64,000 nt of DNA from Isosphaera pallida ATCC 43644 (GTDB taxonomy: Bacteria > Planctomycetota > Planctomycetia > Isosphaerales > Isosphaeraceae). The stretch lies in assembly GCF_000186345.1 (NCBI RefSeq), contig NC_014962.1, positions 3,376,450 through 3,440,449 of the forward strand, given 5' to 3'. A program made the position numbers and the translations under genes. The notes below the pieces were generated by a model. The model saw nothing but the letters and a program-made list of their open reading frames with translations. It did not search any database and was not told where the DNA came from. Below, one piece after another: positions 40,751-57,907 of this stretch (position 1 is its first letter; each line of letters begins with the position of its first letter).

Positions 40751-41184
40751 GTGTGTCGGTCCCGTGATCCGCTTGCCATTCCGATATGAGATTTCGCGTT
40801 GCCGATGGGGTTTACTGCGCTGTCTTGACACGCGCACAGTATGGCCATGATTTCTTCCCAAGGCAAGTTTGGGGTCACTTGCCGAGTGGAACTTGCTTGG
40901 GGAGGGGGGCGTTCCCGCCTTGGGTTTTCCAACTTCCGGGCCAATCCGGTTACAATGCCGCGGCCCGAGCAGCGAACGACGGAGGGAGGGTCCGAAGAGC
41001 GGCCGGGAATTGGCGTGGGTGTGCGGTCCGGAAGAGGAAGCGGCTTGAGGTGGCGTGGCGCGTCGTTTCCTGGGCGGCCTCGTTTCGGAGTGGTCACGCC
41101 GCGGCCTCGTTTCGGAGTGGTCACGCCGTGGTTGGATTGGGAAACCCTCCCGAAACCCCGGAGGAGTTCGCGGGGTAATCTCGT
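40751..41184. other. Divergent spacer between nuclease and sigma factor genes
   Basis: About 430 bases between the divergent nuclease and ECF sigma genes, without a gene. It holds the 27-bp direct repeat described separately. A TACAAT hexamer at 40951-40956 resembles a -10 box, but its -35 region is poor (TCCAAC). Confidence 0.4.
41074..41127 (+). repeat. Perfect 27-bp tandem repeat upstream of the ECF sigma gene
   Basis: Two identical 27-base units, GCGGCCTCGTTTCGGAGTGG plus TCACGCC, lie at 41074-41100 and 41101-41127 with no gap. They end about 58-78 bases before the sigma factor start, where a regulator could bind. Function is unknown; a simple slippage duplication is equally possible. 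Confidence 0.85.
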
Positions 41185-42670: not shown

Positions 42671-43590
42671 GCGCGTCTTGTCGGATCGTGGAGCGGGCCG
42701 TGACCCGGCGGTTGGACGACCGCCTCGACCCTGCCCTCTGGTTGGTCGAAACTCCTGGCGACCCCGTCGGCGAGATCGAGGCGATTCGGCGTCATCTCGA
42801 CGCCTGCCCCCACTGTCGCGCTTCTTGGGAGAACGCCCAGCGGTTGGCGCGCGCTTCGACCGCGTTAGCTCGACGCACCGCGCGCGTGGCGGAGACTCTG
42901 GGTTCGCCCGAGTTCGTCGAGCGGGTCTGGACCGCCTGGCGCGACGCGGAGAAGACAACGGCCGCTCCGTTGATTGTGGTGGGTCGGGTCGGGTCGCGGG
43001 ATGAACGCCGCCGGGTGGTCGGCATAGCCCTGGTCTGGGCGGCGGTTTTGGTCCTAGCGGTGGGGTTGGGGTGGCGTTTGGGAGCGCGTCTGAGCGGGGT
43101 GGGAGAGAAGGTTGATCCCGCCTCGCCCAACCTGGCGGGGCGGCAAGTGGGTTCAGATCGGCCCACGTCGGCCTCGGCGATGGCAACCGTGGCGGTCGAT
43201 CGGGAGTTGGTTCGGGTGACCACCGCCACGTTGGGGTTGGTACGTCGCGCCTCGGAACCAGCCGCGCGGGTGGGCCGCGACTTGCTGGAGGTGTCCCGCG
43301 TCTTGCCGGAAACGCCTGGCTCCTCTTCCACGCCGCGCTTCCATCTGCTGCCCTTGAAGGGTTGGAATGGAACCGAGCCTTCCAGCGAGTCTTCCAGTTT
43401 GGAGTCTGGAGGTCGGGATTCGGGTGAACTCGAACCCCAGGCGGTCGCGTTGGCCGATCTCGGGACGCGCGTCCCATCCGCGACCGTTTCGGCCCAGACC
43501 GAGGACTCCTGGGCCGTCCCGGCCTTGCGGGCTTTTCGTTTCGTTCTGCCCCACGCCGACGTCTCCTCCACGCACAAGGACCACGACTGA
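42667..43590 (+). CDS. Membrane zinc-binding anti-sigma factor
   Basis: A 307-residue protein likely to hold the ECF sigma factor at the membrane. The cytosolic N-terminus has the zinc-binding anti-sigma signature His43-x3-Cys47-x2-Cys50 (HLDACPHC), with Cys5 as the probable fourth ligand. A single membrane helix spans about residues 117-137 (VVGIALVWAAVLVLAVGLGW). The 165-residue extracytoplasmic part is Ser/Pro/Val-rich with no recognised domain. The start overlaps the preceding stop (ATGA), and its stop overlaps the next ATG by one base (TGATG), a tight translational chain. Confidence 0.88.
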   Translation: MSASCRIVERAVTRRLDDRLDPALWLVETPGDPVGEIEAIRRHLDACPHCRASWENAQRLARASTALARRTARVAETLGSPEFVERVWTAWRDAEKTTAAPLIVVGRVGSRDERRRVVGIALVWAAVLVLAVGLGWRLGARLSGVGEKVDPASPNLAGRQVGSDRPTSASAMATVAVDRELVRVTTATLGLVRRASEPAARVGRDLLEVSRVLPETPGSSSTPRFHLLPLKGWNGTEPSSESSSLESGGRDSGELEPQAVALADLGTRVPSATVSAQTEDSWAVPALRAFRFVLPHADVSSTHKDHD

Positions 43591-45572
43591 TGTTGGGCTT
43601 GATCCGTTGGCCGTGTTCCGCTCGCAGGGTTCTTGCAATCGTCGTCGTGATCGGGGCAAGCCCGACGCCGGACGGCCAACTCATTGCGCGCGGGGGCCAA
43701 CTGGGCGCAGCGGTGATCGAGCCGGGCGAGCCGCCACGACCGGCCGCGATCGGTTTCGACTGGAACGGACCGCTGCTCCGTTTGGTGCCGGAGGGGGCCG
43801 CCGCGGTCCTGATGCTCCACGACCTGGCTGACCATCGCCGCGCCTGGCTCGATTCAACCCCCGCGCGACGCTTGGCCCAAACGGAGGTGATGCGGGATTG
43901 GCTCGATTCCGAGGAGGGCCGTCAGTTCGAGCAGGCCCGGGGCGCTCTTAGGGCGGTCTTCGGCCTCGAACTCGGCGACCTGATCGACGCCGTGGTGGGA
44001 CGGGACGCGGTGTTGGCGTTGCGTTTAACCCGGCCCGACCAACCCGAAGGGCTGATTCTAACCCGCGTCAACCCAAACGACCGTGACCTGGTCGAGCGGC
44101 TCATTGAAGGACTCCACCCCTCGGTTCGCTTCGTGGATCGCCCCGTGGTCACCTCGCGGGGAGCCACCACGATCCGCACGCGGTTGGGGATCGACGCCCA
44201 CACGTTTCTGAACTCGGCTGAAGCGGGACTAGGCGAGGACGGCACGGCGATTCTAGTTTGGTCCAACCTGGTCGAGCCGATCGAGGAAGTGATTCGCGCC
44301 GTCGATGCCGTGCTCGCCAACGAGGCTGGAATCCCACCCCGTTTCGCCTCGGTTGAGGATTTGGTTCACTTGGGACGCGATTGGCCGGCTCGTCCGCCGC
44401 TGGCGTTGGTGGTGAGTCCCGAGCGTTTGGGCATGTCGTTTCCGACCGATTCCGCCGATCCGGTCGAAGCTTGGTTGAGCCGAGTTTGGGGGGCCGCTGC
44501 CTGGGTGGGTCTGGCCCTGTCCTGGGAGTCCGACGACGGTTTGCAAGAGGTGTTGCGTCTGCGTTGGGCCGAGCAGCACCGGGTCGAAAAGCTGCCGGAC
44601 TCCTTAAGGCGTTTCGCCTCGTCGCCAACGAATCCTCCGGTCGAACCCAACCAAGTTGAACGACTTCTGGAACACGCGCCTGCCGAGGCGGTGGCGGTTT
44701 GGCTTGCTCAGGGGGATTGGGGCGCGTTGGCCGACGTGCTGCTCGAAGTGGTTGGTCCCCTGCCCGCCTCGCGTCATCAGGCGTTCTGGGTGGCCTTTGA
44801 GGGGTTGGCCGGCGGCCGGCGGCCGCCACGCGAGCTTTTGAGTAGTCTGCAACCCTCCTGGCTCATGTGGGCGAGCGTCGATTGGCCCAAGCCGGGCGAC
44901 CGCGCACCGACAGGACCCGCCGCGGTCGCCGAGATCGCTCCTCCCTCGCCCAAACTCACCTGGGGGAACTGGCGTTTGGCGTTGTCGCTGACCGCCGCGG
45001 ATCAAGCCGCCGCCCTGGCCTGGGAGAATCTGGGACGCACCTTGTTGGCGCTTCGCAAGCTCGACGACTCGGAGGATCACCTGCTGTTGACCGTCGAATC
45101 CGACCCCACCGCGCCTGGACAAATCGCGCCGCCGGTTCGGTCGGTCACCGGGTTGCGTCGTCGGGTGGGAACCCCTTGGTCGTTGGTTTGGGAGCGGAGC
45201 GATCGGGTGTTGCGATTGACTTATGCGCCTCATGCGACATTCAAGCCAACCGATTCGTTATCGCCTTTGGTCGCGTCAACGAATCGGTCGCGTTGGGCCG
45301 CGCTCAAAGACCGTGACGCTCCCGAGGCCAGCACCATTTTGATGATCGATGTAGCGCGCCTGGCCTCATGGGTTCGGGCGTGTGAGCCTACGCTGCTGGA
45401 TTGGCTGGGCGGGTTAGAGGATCGTCCCGCCGCCGAGCTCCTCCGTGATCTCCGCCATGTGCGCGATCTGCTGGATCAGTTTGACACCCTCACCCTTAGC
45501 CAGTGTCTGGAACCCGATCACGCCACTGTCCGCCGCGTCTTGACCCTGCGTTTTCGAGGCAATCTCGAATGA
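43590..45572 (+). CDS. Exported 660-residue protein of unknown function
   Basis: Starts at ATG 43590, sharing one base with the anti-sigma stop. A hydrophobic N-terminus (ARRVLAIVVVIGASPTPDG) looks like a signal peptide. The mature protein has mixed alpha/beta composition with several paired segments, for example DLIDAVVGRDAVLALRL, LVERLIEGLHPSVRFVDRP and LLRDLRHVRDLLDQFDTLTL; this resembles the DUF3352-like proteins found in planctomycetes, but I cannot confirm membership. No catalytic motif is seen. As last gene of a sigma/anti-sigma operon it is a candidate for the sensor or the target of this stress response. Its stop codon lies in the first unit of a heptamer repeat array. Confidence 0.7.
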   Translation: MLGLIRWPCSARRVLAIVVVIGASPTPDGQLIARGGQLGAAVIEPGEPPRPAAIGFDWNGPLLRLVPEGAAAVLMLHDLADHRRAWLDSTPARRLAQTEVMRDWLDSEEGRQFEQARGALRAVFGLELGDLIDAVVGRDAVLALRLTRPDQPEGLILTRVNPNDRDLVERLIEGLHPSVRFVDRPVVTSRGATTIRTRLGIDAHTFLNSAEAGLGEDGTAILVWSNLVEPIEEVIRAVDAVLANEAGIPPRFASVEDLVHLGRDWPARPPLALVVSPERLGMSFPTDSADPVEAWLSRVWGAAAWVGLALSWESDDGLQEVLRLRWAEQHRVEKLPDSLRRFASSPTNPPVEPNQVERLLEHAPAEAVAVWLAQGDWGALADVLLEVVGPLPASRHQAFWVAFEGLAGGRRPPRELLSSLQPSWLMWASVDWPKPGDRAPTGPAAVAEIAPPSPKLTWGNWRLALSLTAADQAAALAWENLGRTLLALRKLDDSEDHLLLTVESDPTAPGQIAPPVRSVTGLRRRVGTPWSLVWERSDRVLRLTYAPHATFKPTDSLSPLVASTNRSRWAALKDRDAPEASTILMIDVARLASWVRACEPTLLDWLGGLEDRPAAELLRDLRHVRDLLDQFDTLTLSQCLEPDHATVRRVLTLRFRGNLE

Positions 45573-45668
45573 GTGGGGAGTGGGGAGTGGGGAGTGGGGA
45601 GTGGGGTGTGGGCAGTGGGGTGTGGGGAGTGGGGAGGTGATATGGGGTGTGGGGAGAGTGGGGTGTGA
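45571..45668 (+). repeat. G-rich heptamer repeat array (GAGTGGG-type)
   Basis: At least four exact tandem copies of GAGTGGG open the array at 45571, followed by degenerate units GGGTGTG, GGCAGTG and a spacer GGTGATATGG. It begins on the last base pair of the preceding coding sequence. Together with the C-rich array at 45882-46050 it forms a long imperfect inverted repeat; GTGGGGAGTGGGGAGGTGAT here is complementary to the matching stretch near 45929-45955. Confidence 0.9.
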
Positions 45669-45881
45669 TGCAAGTCTTGGGAAGCAGTGGGCGTGATTCG
45701 AATAGGTTATCAACCAACCCTGTGATCGCGTTTAGTTGCGTTTCTTTCCCGAATCCAACGGGGCCGACAAAGCAGCGCGTCTTACCTTCAACCTTCGACC
45801 CACTCTTCCCAATTCTCACCCTTTCCTTCCAAAACTCCACATTCCCATATCATTCCCAATTCTCACCTTTCTCCTCCAATT
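45669..45881. other. Spacer between the two heptamer arrays
   Basis: About 210 bases with lower GC and a pyrimidine-rich plus strand, containing CCCAATTCTCACC twice (about 45808 and 45855). No gene is seen. It would be the loop if the flanking arrays paired. Confidence 0.5.
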
Positions 45882-46050
45882 ACCCCACACCTCACTCCCC
45901 ACACCCCACTCCCCACTCCCCACTCCCCATATCACCTCCCCACTCCCCACACCCCACACCCCACACCCCACTCCCCACACCCCACTCCCCACTCCCCACT
46001 CCTCCTTATGAGCCACACCCCACTCCCCACTCCCCACTCCTCCTTATGAG
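45882..46050 (-). repeat. C-rich heptamer repeat array (CCCCACT/CCCCACA)
   Basis: About twenty heptamers of the type CCCCACT or CCCCACA, interrupted by CCCCATATCACC. The array ends with two exact tandem copies of a 38-base unit (45975-46012 and 46013-46050) that finish in CCTCCTTATGAG. In orientation it is the reverse complement of the G-rich array 210 bases to the left. Heptamers of this composition are a known class of short tandem repeats (STRR) in cyanobacteria. Confidence 0.9.
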
Positions 46051-46204: not shown

Positions 46205-47626
46205 ATGATCGCATTGCACCGCGACGCGCCCCGGATCGTTGGTCCCTTGCCCGGTCCCGAAGCGCGGGCCTGGTTGCATCGGGACGACTCGGTGATGTCG
46301 CCCTCCTACACCCGGACCTATCCGTTAGTGGTCAAACGGGGTTTGGGGGCGATGATCGAAGACGTGGACGGCAACCGGTTCCTCGACTTCACCGCCGGAA
46401 TCGCCGTCACTAACGTGGGGCATTGCCACCCCCGGGTCACTCGGGCGATCCGCCAGCAGGCGGGTGAGTTGGTCCACATGTCGGGGACCGACTTCTATTA
46501 CTTGCCCCAAATTCAACTCGCCGAACGACTGGCCAAGCTCGCGCCCGGCGACGAACCTAAACGGGTCTTTTTCACCAACTCGGGAGCTGAGGCCAACGAG
46601 GCAGCGCTCAAGCTGGCCCGCTACCACACCCGTCGCGCCCGGGTAATCGCGTTCTTCGGCGCGTTTCACGGGCGGACCTACGGCGCGTTGTCACTATCAG
46701 GTTCCAAGCCAACTCAACGCAGAGGATTCGCGCCACTGGTTCCGGACATCCACCACGCCGGTTACGGTTGCCTGGAGTCGGTCAAGCGTTTGTTGAGAAC
46801 GGTCTGCCCGCCTGAGGATCTAGCGGCGATCTTCGTTGAGGCGATCCAGGGCGAAGGCGGCTACATCGTACCTCCGCCCGACTTCCTGCCGGGGATTCGT
46901 CGGTTGTGCGACCAGACCGGGGCTATCATGGTGGTAGACGAGGTGCAGTCGGGCATGGGCCGAACCGGCAAACTGTTCGCCCAAGAGCACTTCGGGGTCG
47001 CCGCCGACATCACCTGCGTCGCCAAGGGGATTGCCAACGGGTTGCCTCTGGGAGCGATCATCGCCAAGGCGTCGATCATGAATTGGGTGCCCGGCTCACA
47101 CGCCTCGACCTTCGGCGGCAACCCCGTCGCCTGCGCTGCGGCCAACGTGGTACTGGACCTTCTGGAGGAAAAATACCTGGCCAATACCCGTCGGCGGGGT
47201 CGGCAGCTGATGAAGGGCCTCAGCGCGTTGGCCGCCAAACACCCTGAGACGATTCATCAGATCCGCGGCAAAGGGTTAATGGTGGGGATGGAGGTTCGGC
47301 ATCTGGGTCAACCCCATCCGGGTTTCCGCGATCGGATCATCGACTTGGCGTTCGAGCGTGGTCTGCTGCTGCTGCCCTGCGGGACCTCGACGGTGCGGTT
47401 TTGTCCGCCATTGTGCGTCAACCAGCGTCAGGTCGAGACCGCCCTGGAGTTGACCGCCGCGGCGCTGGAGGCGGCGGAGGTCGAGTTGCACGCGGGTCGG
47501 ATCCCGGCCCCCTATGATCCGTTCGGTCCCGAGTTGGGCCATCATCAGGCGAACACGCCCACCAACAGTCACGCCTGCCTGACCACCTCTCCCACGAGCA
47601 CCTACCCGGGACATTCCCACTCATGA
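46205..47626 (+). CDS. Class III PLP-dependent aminotransferase
   Basis: A 473-residue omega-aminotransferase (ornithine, acetylornithine, 4-aminobutyrate or related substrate). Key marks are FTNSGAEANEAALKLAR, the AFHGRTYGALSLSGS segment, the cofactor aspartate in VVDEVQSGMGRTGK, and the Schiff-base lysine at about residue 274 in CVAKGIANGLPLGAI. The FHGRTYGALSLSGSK version is commoner in GabT-like and archaeal ornithine/lysine aminotransferases than in ArgD. ATG 46205 has GGAGGAG 9 bases upstream. Its stop overlaps the next start (ATGA), so the unknown partner is made with it. The C-terminal 45 residues are a low-complexity tail. Confidence 0.9.
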   Translation: MIALHRDAPRIVGPLPGPEARAWLHRDDSVMSPSYTRTYPLVVKRGLGAMIEDVDGNRFLDFTAGIAVTNVGHCHPRVTRAIRQQAGELVHMSGTDFYYLPQIQLAERLAKLAPGDEPKRVFFTNSGAEANEAALKLARYHTRRARVIAFFGAFHGRTYGALSLSGSKPTQRRGFAPLVPDIHHAGYGCLESVKRLLRTVCPPEDLAAIFVEAIQGEGGYIVPPPDFLPGIRRLCDQTGAIMVVDEVQSGMGRTGKLFAQEHFGVAADITCVAKGIANGLPLGAIIAKASIMNWVPGSHASTFGGNPVACAAANVVLDLLEEKYLANTRRRGRQLMKGLSALAAKHPETIHQIRGKGLMVGMEVRHLGQPHPGFRDRIIDLAFERGLLLLPCGTSTVRFCPPLCVNQRQVETALELTAAALEAAEVELHAGRIPAPYDPFGPELGHHQANTPTNSHACLTTSPTSTYPGHSHS

Positions 47627-49482: not shown

Positions 49483-49565
49483 CAATAGGGCTAGAATGGC
49501 GGGCTGAGTGGAGCGCGGTTCGCACGGAGATAAGGGGTCGGGGGATTCGATGTCGGAGGGCGTTC

Positions 49566-55873: not shown

Positions 55874-56281
55874 GGCGGAGGGGAATCTCCCGAAGCCCAT
55901 CCAAATTCAGGGACTGGTTGGGAAGTGTTAGTTCGGGTTAACCCTCAAAATTAAGCGGGACAACCGCCGACGACAAGACCCGGAGGGTCGTTGGTGGCGC
56001 TTCAATTGCCCGGAGTGAGAACAACGCGCGTCTTGACATTGCCCGGCACGAGGGTCATTGTAAAATAGTGTCCAGAGGTTCCAGCCGCATCCGCTATTGC
56101 CGTCCCCACCCAGCCAGTTGCGGATTCGGGTGAGATCCTCTTGAGAAACGCTCAACCCTTGGTTGTGTTCCTTGTCCCGCCTCTCTTAGCTTGCTTAATG
56201 TTTCGCGGGAATGAAGCACGGGCGTGTGGTTGGGGATGTTTTGATCCGACTTTGGTTCTTCTTTGCACCGAGCGTGATCCC
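55874..56281. other. Divergent promoter region between the response regulator and a secreted protein
   Basis: About 410 bases. TTGACA at 56033-56038 is a perfect -35 box, but TAAAAT lies 22 bases away (56061-56066) and the hexamer at 17 bases is CATTGT, so the promoter is uncertain. An open frame upstream of the next gene (from 56141) is an in-frame extension with no start signal. Confidence 0.35.
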
Positions 56282-57907
56282 ATGACGAATCCGTCGTTCC
56301 GTTTGACCGGCAGGATCGCCGGATCGCCGTCGTTGCGTTGGCTCGCGGCCTTCGCGGTCACCACTGCGCTGGTTCTCGGGTGGACCGTGATCCCCGCGGG
56401 CGGACCTCGGGTCGCCCAGTCTCAACCACCTGCCGGTCGGGACGACCCTGCCAAGAAGCAGACCCCCGCCCCCGCCAAGAACGAGGCCGAGCCACCCGAC
56501 ATTGATGAGGAAGAGGATCAGGACGCCCCGGTGGTGCCGAGTTCCGACGAAATCGTCTACGATCCCGCCGCCCGGAAACTGCTCGACAACAACTTTCCCG
56601 AATTGCCTGATCCGGGCGCTCCCTCGCCTGCCGAGGAGGAGCGTCTGCGGCGTGCCGCCGAAGTTGCCGGTGGTCGGATCGAAGGGGCCTTGGTTGACAA
56701 ATATGTCAAACACTACGCCTCCGAGTTGACCAAGCGGGAGATCCTCAAAACCTGGTTGGAAGGTCGGACGCAAATTGATCCCGAAGGCAAGCTGAGCGCC
56801 TCGCAAGCCCGGGCGGCTCAGGAGGTTGAAGACCGCAAGTACCGCATGATCGAGACCGCGGCCGCCAAGCTGCTCGAACCGGCCCGTTTGGCCGCGGCCG
56901 CCAAGAACTCCACCTTCGCCAACGCCTACGTGACCAAATTGGTCGAGGTTCTCACCCCCCTGCTCCAAGGCAACCTGTTCACCCGGGTTCAAGCAGCTCA
57001 AGTCCTGGCCCGTTGCGAGAACTCGCGGGCGGTGCCGGCGTTGGTGGCTATTTTGAACGACCCCACCCAGCCCTACGCCGTCAAGGACGTGGCAATGGCC
57101 GGAATCGTGGTCATGTCCAACGAGGGCCGGGATGAACAACCTTTGCGAGGTGAGGCGGTCAATCTGGCCACCGGTTTGACCAACTTTCTTGAAGCTAACC
57201 CCCCGCCGCCTTGGCCATTCCAAACCCGCGCTCTTCAAGCGATCGGTTCGCTGCGGCTGAGTTATCTCGATATCCGATCAAACAAAGCCGAAGTCGCTGC
57301 CGCCGCTCTGGCAGTGCTCGCCGATCCTAACGCCCGCTCCATCGCCCGCGCCTGGGCCGCCTGGGCGCTGGGGATGATGCGGATTCCTGACGAACTGGCC
57401 GATTACAATTTTACCCTGCCCGCCTATTGGACCGGACGGCTCGCGGTGGAGATTGGCAACGAAGCGGTTCGGATTAGTCGGATTCGGGTCGCCATCGAAG
57501 AGGAGAAAACGGCTGAATCCGGCAGCGCTTCCACAAGTGGGAAGACCGTCAAGGAGAAGGCCGATTTTCCGGTCTCCCGAGTGCGTGGTCAGGCGGGGTT
57601 GCTCATTTATCCCATCACCAAGGCGTTCATCGGCGATACCGCCGCGCTCGAGTCAGGATTCACCCGGGGTTCCACCACCCATCCCGGCATTTCCAAGCAC
57701 CGGGTCGCCATTGCCGCCATCGCCGACAAAGTCAAAGCGGTCGCCCGCGCGTCGCTGGAATTGTCCAACTCCGCCGGTGGTTTGATTCCTCAATCCCGCG
57801 CCAAGCTGGAACAAGCGGTGGCCGATCTAGCGGCCCATCTTGACAAGAATCCGCCTCCCTCCTGGAAGCTCACCCCGAGCACCCGTGAGTTCAAACCCGC
57901 TCCATAA
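56282..57907 (+). CDS. Secreted HEAT-like helical repeat protein
   Basis: A 541-residue exported protein. The N-terminus has a signal peptide or anchor (LRWLAAFAVTTALVLGWTVI, about residues 17-36), then a Pro/Glu/Asp-rich linker (DIDEEEDQDAP). The rest is helical, with HEAT-like repeats such as TRVQAAQVLARCENSRAVPA and ARAWAAWALGMMRIPDELA, a pattern used for protein-protein contact. The ATG at 56282 is chosen because the signal peptide follows at once; the frame is open 47 codons further. A weak Shine-Dalgarno is present. No enzyme motif is seen. Function unknown. Confidence 0.8.
   Translation: MTNPSFRLTGRIAGSPSLRWLAAFAVTTALVLGWTVIPAGGPRVAQSQPPAGRDDPAKKQTPAPAKNEAEPPDIDEEEDQDAPVVPSSDEIVYDPAARKLLDNNFPELPDPGAPSPAEEERLRRAAEVAGGRIEGALVDKYVKHYASELTKREILKTWLEGRTQIDPEGKLSASQARAAQEVEDRKYRMIETAAAKLLEPARLAAAAKNSTFANAYVTKLVEVLTPLLQGNLFTRVQAAQVLARCENSRAVPALVAILNDPTQPYAVKDVAMAGIVVMSNEGRDEQPLRGEAVNLATGLTNFLEANPPPPWPFQTRALQAIGSLRLSYLDIRSNKAEVAAAALAVLADPNARSIARAWAAWALGMMRIPDELADYNFTLPAYWTGRLAVEIGNEAVRISRIRVAIEEEKTAESGSASTSGKTVKEKADFPVSRVRGQAGLLIYPITKAFIGDTAALESGFTRGSTTHPGISKHRVAIAAIADKVKAVARASLELSNSAGGLIPQSRAKLEQAVADLAAHLDKNPPPSWKLTPSTREFKPAP

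Follow-up and report, generated by a model that had tools for sequence, protein, structure and literature searches.

Paired convergent arrays of a G-rich heptamer at gene ends in the planctomycete Isosphaera pallida

G-rich heptamer repeats in bacteria

Among long repeats, heptamers are the most frequent kind in many bacteria and have been associated with slippage (quoted in PMC4692102). Most relevant in this respect is the study of Rehm et al. 2015, which described the G-quadruplex (G4)-forming heptamers GGGNATC and GGGGA(C/T)T in Xanthomonas and Nostoc, where they lie on the sense strand at stop codons (PMC4692102). Xanthomonas genomes hold 70-75 convergent heptamer pairs each, and the repeats of Nostoc are mostly unpaired, with few pairs (PMC4692102). 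Transcripts start or stop more often in the G4-capable Xanthomonas repeats, and the authors sought a regulatory role for the heptamers and found none (PMC4692102). For the STRR repeats near hydrogenase genes, a role in transcript stability or termination has been proposed (PMC2670836). Independently of repeats, a ribosome termination structure (RTS) has been defined as a structure immediately behind the stop codon that reduces re-initiation (PMC7518266).

The genome of I. pallida IS1B consists of a chromosome of 5,472,964 bp and a plasmid of 56,340 bp (PMC3072084). A survey of DNA structure patterns found G-patterns strongly over-represented in this organism, likewise in Microcystis, Anabaena and Nostoc (PMC4060949). 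A paper describing the I. pallida arrays themselves was not found in the open-access literature searched.

The paired array of the window

The window, that is, the whole 64-kb stretch of DNA that was analysed (chromosome 3376450-3440449), contains two opposed heptamer arrays. The left arm (45571-45666, plus strand), delimited by TRF, pattern search and array mapping, consists of G-rich GGGG(A/T)GT units. The right arm (45883-46041, minus strand), delimited by TRF, array mapping and its hairpin with the left arm, is the inverted array and reads CCCCACT/CCCCACA on the plus strand. TRF called GAGTGGG 9.4 times at 45571-45636 and CCCCACT 22.3 times at 45883-46040, and together with the pattern search this confirmed the original prediction of a large inverted repeat of these units; the spacer, which had been put at 210 bases, measures 216 bp (45667-45882). 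Chance is ruled out for the window array, since the 18-mer pattern GGGGWGTGGGGWGTGGGG, allowing up to three mismatches, occurs 33 times in the window, whereas 0.7 occurrences are expected from shuffled sequence. Direct reading of the sequence shows an odd unit common to both arms, GAGGTGATATGGGG, at 45634-45647 on the plus strand and as its complement at 45925-45938 on the minus strand. The outer edge of the right arm is closed by a 38-bp tandem duplication (45975-46050), whose two copies of CCACACCCCACTCCCCACTCCCCACTCCTCCTTATGAG occupy 45975-46012 and 46013-46050.

The left arm follows the last gene of a sigma-factor operon, a 660-aa gene at 43590-45572 (plus strand; called by open reading frame and codon usage) that matched no Pfam family, and the G-rich strand of this arm is the coding strand of that gene. 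As had been predicted, the array touches the stop codon: the TGA at 45570-45572 overlaps the first GAGTGGG. The gene behind the element, a class III aminotransferase gene (argD-like; 46205-47626, plus strand; PF00202, E 6.3e-122), runs in the same direction and starts 167 bp past the second array. Further upstream in the window, a perfect 27-bp tandem duplication (GCGGCCTCGTTTCGGAGTGGTCACGCC) lies at 41074-41128, just in front of a sigma-factor-like gene.

A dispersed family in the genome

A search of the genome for further arrays of the same heptamer, which had been proposed as a check, retrieved 108+106 exact 20-mer matches and 76 BLAST pieces. Grouping of these matches gives about 25 loci, of which 23 are chromosomal and two lie on the plasmid; the counts rest on pattern and BLAST searches, which very degenerate arrays may escape. 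The earlier reading of the window array holds for its type, rarity and structure potential, and missed that the locus is one of many with a strict layout. The window locus very probably belongs to a dispersed family of paired convergent arrays that is specific to Isosphaera and falls into the known class of G4-capable repeats at gene ends. That the array could be an assembly artefact, named earlier as a possible refutation, is judged unlikely, because the arrays sit on a finished chromosome as well as on the plasmid, and another genome shows the layout too.

Array mapping showed a single polarity: the C array lies to the right of the G array at each of the 14 paired loci, with no reversed case. 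The variable position of GGGG(A/T)GT between intact units is A in 151 cases and T in 139. Fifteen of the 23 chromosomal loci fall within 1.12 Mb (chromosome 2.55-3.67 Mb, about one fifth of its length; simulation gave P about 1e-4 for an interval width chosen post hoc). Only about 1% of the I. pallida genes bear the element, and according to Pfam their functions are diverse; genes were called by codon usage, and Pfam matches back most of the neighbours tested.

The edges of the arrays differ in character. The outer edges are abrupt, and inward the heptamer identity fades gradually into sequence that remains purine-rich (0.69 vs 0.48 outside). At several loci, near-perfect inverted repeats prolong the arms past the heptamers (61 bp at 98%, 217 bp at 91%, 74 bp at 93% and 48 bp at 98% identity). 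Spacers recur as well: BLAST against the own genome and a masked all-against-all BLAST relate the window spacer to two copies about 34 and 40 kb away (88-89% identity), which lie at chromosome 3.456 and 3.462 Mb, and BLAST gives further groups at 3.059/3.071/4.130 Mb, 3.299/3.307 Mb and 2.549/2.950 Mb. The arm palindromes, the shared spacers and the clustering are consistent with, and fall short of proving, a copying between arrays by recombination or template switching.

Some further observations were made during this mapping. The plasmid arrays lie at 49485-49535 and at 56170-56340, the latter continuing into 1-75 (about 247 bases across the start of the record), and a CRISPR-like repeat array on the plasmid ends shortly before the array at 49485-49535. 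At chromosome 2966366-2966670, heptamer-like units inside one element form a higher-order tandem repeat whose copies follow in 28-base steps and are about 94% alike. The sole Y1_Tnp (RAYT-like) domain of the genome (chromosome 4939391-4939621) is part of a very long reading frame, in which methylase-like sequence flanks it on either side, and the region around it contains other REP-like palindromes, of the GGGAGCGTGGGCATCTTGCCCGCTC type.

Position relative to stop codons

The contact with the stop codon is real at the window locus; what had looked like a peculiarity of that locus is a rule of the whole family. Among 39 array ends examined, 27 point towards a gene's 3' end; their distance to the stop codon is at most 8 bp in 23 cases, at most 20 bp in 24 and at most 50 bp in 25. 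For uniform intergenic insertion, a simple null that ignores how the elements arose, the chance of an end lying within 8 bp is 0.025. The median length of convergent gaps without an array is 145 bp, and array ends that face the 5' end of a gene keep a distance of 17-752 bp. The G-rich strand is the coding strand at all 27 ends facing a 3' end. For a pair of this polarity it follows by geometry, so that the informative facts are the polarity itself and the proximity to the stop.

The stop is TGA at 22 of 24 array junctions (background 72.5%, P 0.02), and AATGA occurs at six of the 24 as compared with a background of 3.5%, an about sevenfold excess that was noticed post hoc. Four unrelated genes among these junctions have the stop context GAATGA followed at once by GTGGGG. 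The phase of the heptamer varies at the array ends. Convergent neighbours are enriched at array loci (9/23 vs 43/283), and at eight of the 14 pairs the neighbours are co-directional.

The idea that the element truncates genes by supplying their stop is ruled out at polA, where the full C-terminus is kept in comparison with relatives. The array is absent from the polA locus of the 29 relatives compared, in which the neighbouring gene is not conserved either.

Predicted RNA structure

The original prediction of hairpin or G-quadruplex potential was borne out in silico. An energy model folds the plus-strand RNA of 45571-46045 into one long hairpin of -262 kcal/mol; for the G arm by itself it favours G-quadruplexes (-62 vs -1.9 kcal/mol), and G4Hunter scores this arm at 2.15, compared with at most 1.41 elsewhere in the window. 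G-quadruplex formation by the Isosphaera G arm is thus predicted both by the energy model and by G4Hunter. The C arm is C-rich and almost free of G, and the same model leaves it unfolded when alone (-0.9 kcal/mol).

Tests of 24 stops that bear arrays revealed no intrinsic terminator, defined as a short GC hairpin with a U run, in the following 100 nt, and this identity was therefore rejected. As the arrays start 0-8 nt past the stop, there is no space for another terminator in between. In the I. pallida genome as a whole, intrinsic terminators are rare and barely exceed their frequency in shuffled sequence.

Occurrence in other genomes

No array match was detected in 44 other Isosphaeraceae genomes; the array is thus not common to the family, which would have marked it as an old native repeat. 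That such arrays are unusual in planctomycetes also stands, as the pattern was present in one of the 392 genomes sampled, I. pallida itself, and in none of the other 391. Among GTDB species contigs, one 27-mer of the array was matched in one other planctomycete MAG and in five cyanobacteria.

In the planctomycete MAG, LaPlata-b bin-0686, a similar array lies behind the stop of a minus-strand gene, and the convergent plus-strand gene opposite it seemingly ends with an ordinary hairpin-plus-U terminator, as read by eye.

The cyanobacterial genomes reached contain about 100 to 860 heptamer matches each, and one Oscillatoria genome has 410+441 exact matches, in agreement with the assignment of the heptamer to a cyanobacterial type. 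On a 335-kb contig of this Oscillatoria, adjacent arrays are G-then-C in eight cases, C-then-G in none and C-C in three. Fifteen outer ends on this contig lie within 50 bp of a stop and three within 50 bp of a start, compared with none of the 37 inner sides for either. In a second cyanobacterium, UBA11370, the arrays are not paired and the stop rule is followed in part: inner sides are never close, and five of seven outer ends that face a 3' end lie within 50 bp of it. Several arrays of UBA11370 are preceded by the common flank ACAAATT(G/C/T)CTAGGTTTT, which suggests, from the sequence, that a separate dispersed element may carry the array there.

Origin and possible role of the arrays

We propose that the heptamer array pair may act as a gene-end insulator at the RNA level. 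The arrays would grow by slippage, and their arms would be kept alike and copied between sites via recombination or template switching between inverted repeats. On the transcript, the RNA just past the stop would fold into G-quadruplexes and, after the other arm has been transcribed, into the long hairpin, and such structure would hold back ribosomes that drift beyond the stop as well as RNA polymerase in read-through, and would block 3' exonucleases. The account as a whole, in which a G4-capable gene-end repeat family expands by slippage and recombination and has an insulator role, seems to us to have an even chance of being right; the insulator role taken for itself is put forward tentatively, somewhat below even. 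It is supported by the uniform polarity of the pairs (14/14), the 23 ends within 8 bp of a stop and the enrichment of convergent neighbours, by the missing terminators at array stops, the RNA models and the recurring arms and spacers, and by the comparison with Oscillatoria, which shares the polarity (8:0) and the stop rule, and with Xanthomonas, which shares the positional rule and the pairs (PMC4692102). Against it stand the negative result of Rehm et al. on a regulatory role (PMC4692102) and UBA11370, where pairing is missing. As the element occurs at about 1% of genes with diverse functions and relatives lack it, it is not required for gene ends in general, and at the eight pairs with co-directional neighbours a two-way barrier is unneeded.

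The strongest rival to the insulator is a functionless, mutation-driven repeat, which we consider possible though doubtful. Polymerase slippage would expand the heptamers, foldback template switching would make the inverted partner, and selection would purge copies from coding and promoter DNA, so that the survivors lie behind stop codons. The few copies, their diverse host genes and their absence from relatives agree with this, as do the gradual inward decay of heptamer identity, the clustering on the chromosome, the relatedness of copies chiefly to near neighbours and the abundance of slippage-linked heptamers in many bacteria (quoted in PMC4692102). Tolerance alone, however, fails to explain why 23 of 27 ends are found within 8 bp of a stop, given the 145-bp median of array-free convergent gaps, and it leaves the fixed pair polarity unexplained. 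The origin of the contact with the stop codon is accounted for by neither the insulator nor the slippage view. Rho could be involved instead if the C-rich second arm served on the transcript as a rut-like site and halted read-through before the convergent gene. I. pallida encodes Rho, its intrinsic terminators are scarce, and the C arm, nearly G-free and unfolded alone, has a suitable composition, but the arm is expected from the energy model to pair with the already transcribed G arm, single arrays place only the G-rich strand in the transcript, and cyanobacteria, which are generally held to lack Rho, share the layout; we regard a Rho-assisted terminator as improbable.

Two explanations concern where the repeat came from. 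A recent gene transfer from mat cyanobacteria, which the heptamer and layout common to cyanobacteria, the lack of the array in planctomycete relatives, the two loci on the 56-kb plasmid and the habitat of I. pallida, given as algal mat and hot spring, would all fit, is in our opinion unlikely. Between the Isosphaera spacers and those of one Oscillatoria contig only heptamer-like matches were found, and a transfer of the spacer from Oscillatoria was therefore rejected; carriage by phage or plasmid was rejected likewise, as a search of viral contigs for the array and of PLSDB (a set without the pISOP01 record) for the window spacer gave no match. Moreover, convergent arrays of other heptamers in Xanthomonas make an independent origin plausible. 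A transposable palindrome of the REP/BIME kind, mobilised by a RAYT (Y1 transposase), is very improbable and largely refuted. Extragenic inverted pairs, recurring spacers and the presence of one Y1_Tnp domain speak for it, but that domain, inside its long methylase-like frame, is accompanied by different palindromes with no heptamer nearby, and the variable heptamer phase at the array ends means that there is no fixed element end.

The insulator reading could be extended much further. Convergent G-rich heptamer palindromes might be a general, unrecognised class of two-way gene-end insulators that arose or spread in three or more phyla (Xanthomonas, cyanobacteria, Isosphaera), which form or insert exactly at stops and whose RNA would start out as G-quadruplex and change to the long hairpin with transcription of the second arm; at present we think this is rather unlikely. 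The same layout in an unrelated cyanobacterium nevertheless suggests that the origin or the action of such repeats is general, which turns the function of G4 heptamers at the ends of bacterial genes into a testable question. The class has been known since 2015 without a function, and in Isosphaera its layout is unusually clean, with a sharp edge at the stop, fixed polarity, palindromic arms and shared spacers, and the copies are few enough to be studied one by one.

Comparison with known systems

REP/BIME and REPIN elements are likewise extragenic inverted pairs scattered in one genome, but the units in Isosphaera are tandem heptamers and not short palindromic REPs, and no RAYT is linked. With the RTS (PMC7518266), the arrays share a stable RNA structure directly behind the stop that is favoured at operon ends and convergent genes. 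However, an RTS is any local hairpin and occurs at many genes, whereas the Isosphaera element forms a family of repeats that span hundreds of bases and occur at about 1% of genes; the position fits an RTS by analogy, and the RNA structure is a predicted one.

The cyanobacterial STRR repeats (e.g. PMC2670836) are closer, as they are seven-base tandem repeats near gene ends that can form hairpins, and the GGGGAGT/GGGGTGT unit is found in cyanobacteria too. Like these, the Isosphaera arrays are heptamer tandem repeats dispersed in intergenic DNA; they differ in their planctomycete host and in a pairing that is stricter than in Nostoc.

The repeats of Rehm et al. 2015 agree in most features: they are tandem, G-rich, intergenic and dispersed, lie on the sense strand at or overlapping the stop of diverse host genes and, in Xanthomonas, form convergent pairs. 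The Isosphaera arrays correspondingly consist of G-rich heptamers in tandem and contain four or more G tracts, have the sense strand within 50 bp of the stop at 25 of the 27 ends facing a 3' end, and form 14 convergent pairs of one polarity. They differ in the unit GGGG(A/T)GT, in the small number of loci and in arrays that are mostly much longer than four units, and also in arms that are often palindromic past the heptamers, in spacers that recur and in copies that are found on a plasmid as well. The Isosphaera arrays are thus a known and functionally unexplained element class in a new phylum, with a cleaner layout, to which palindromic arms and recurrent spacers are added.
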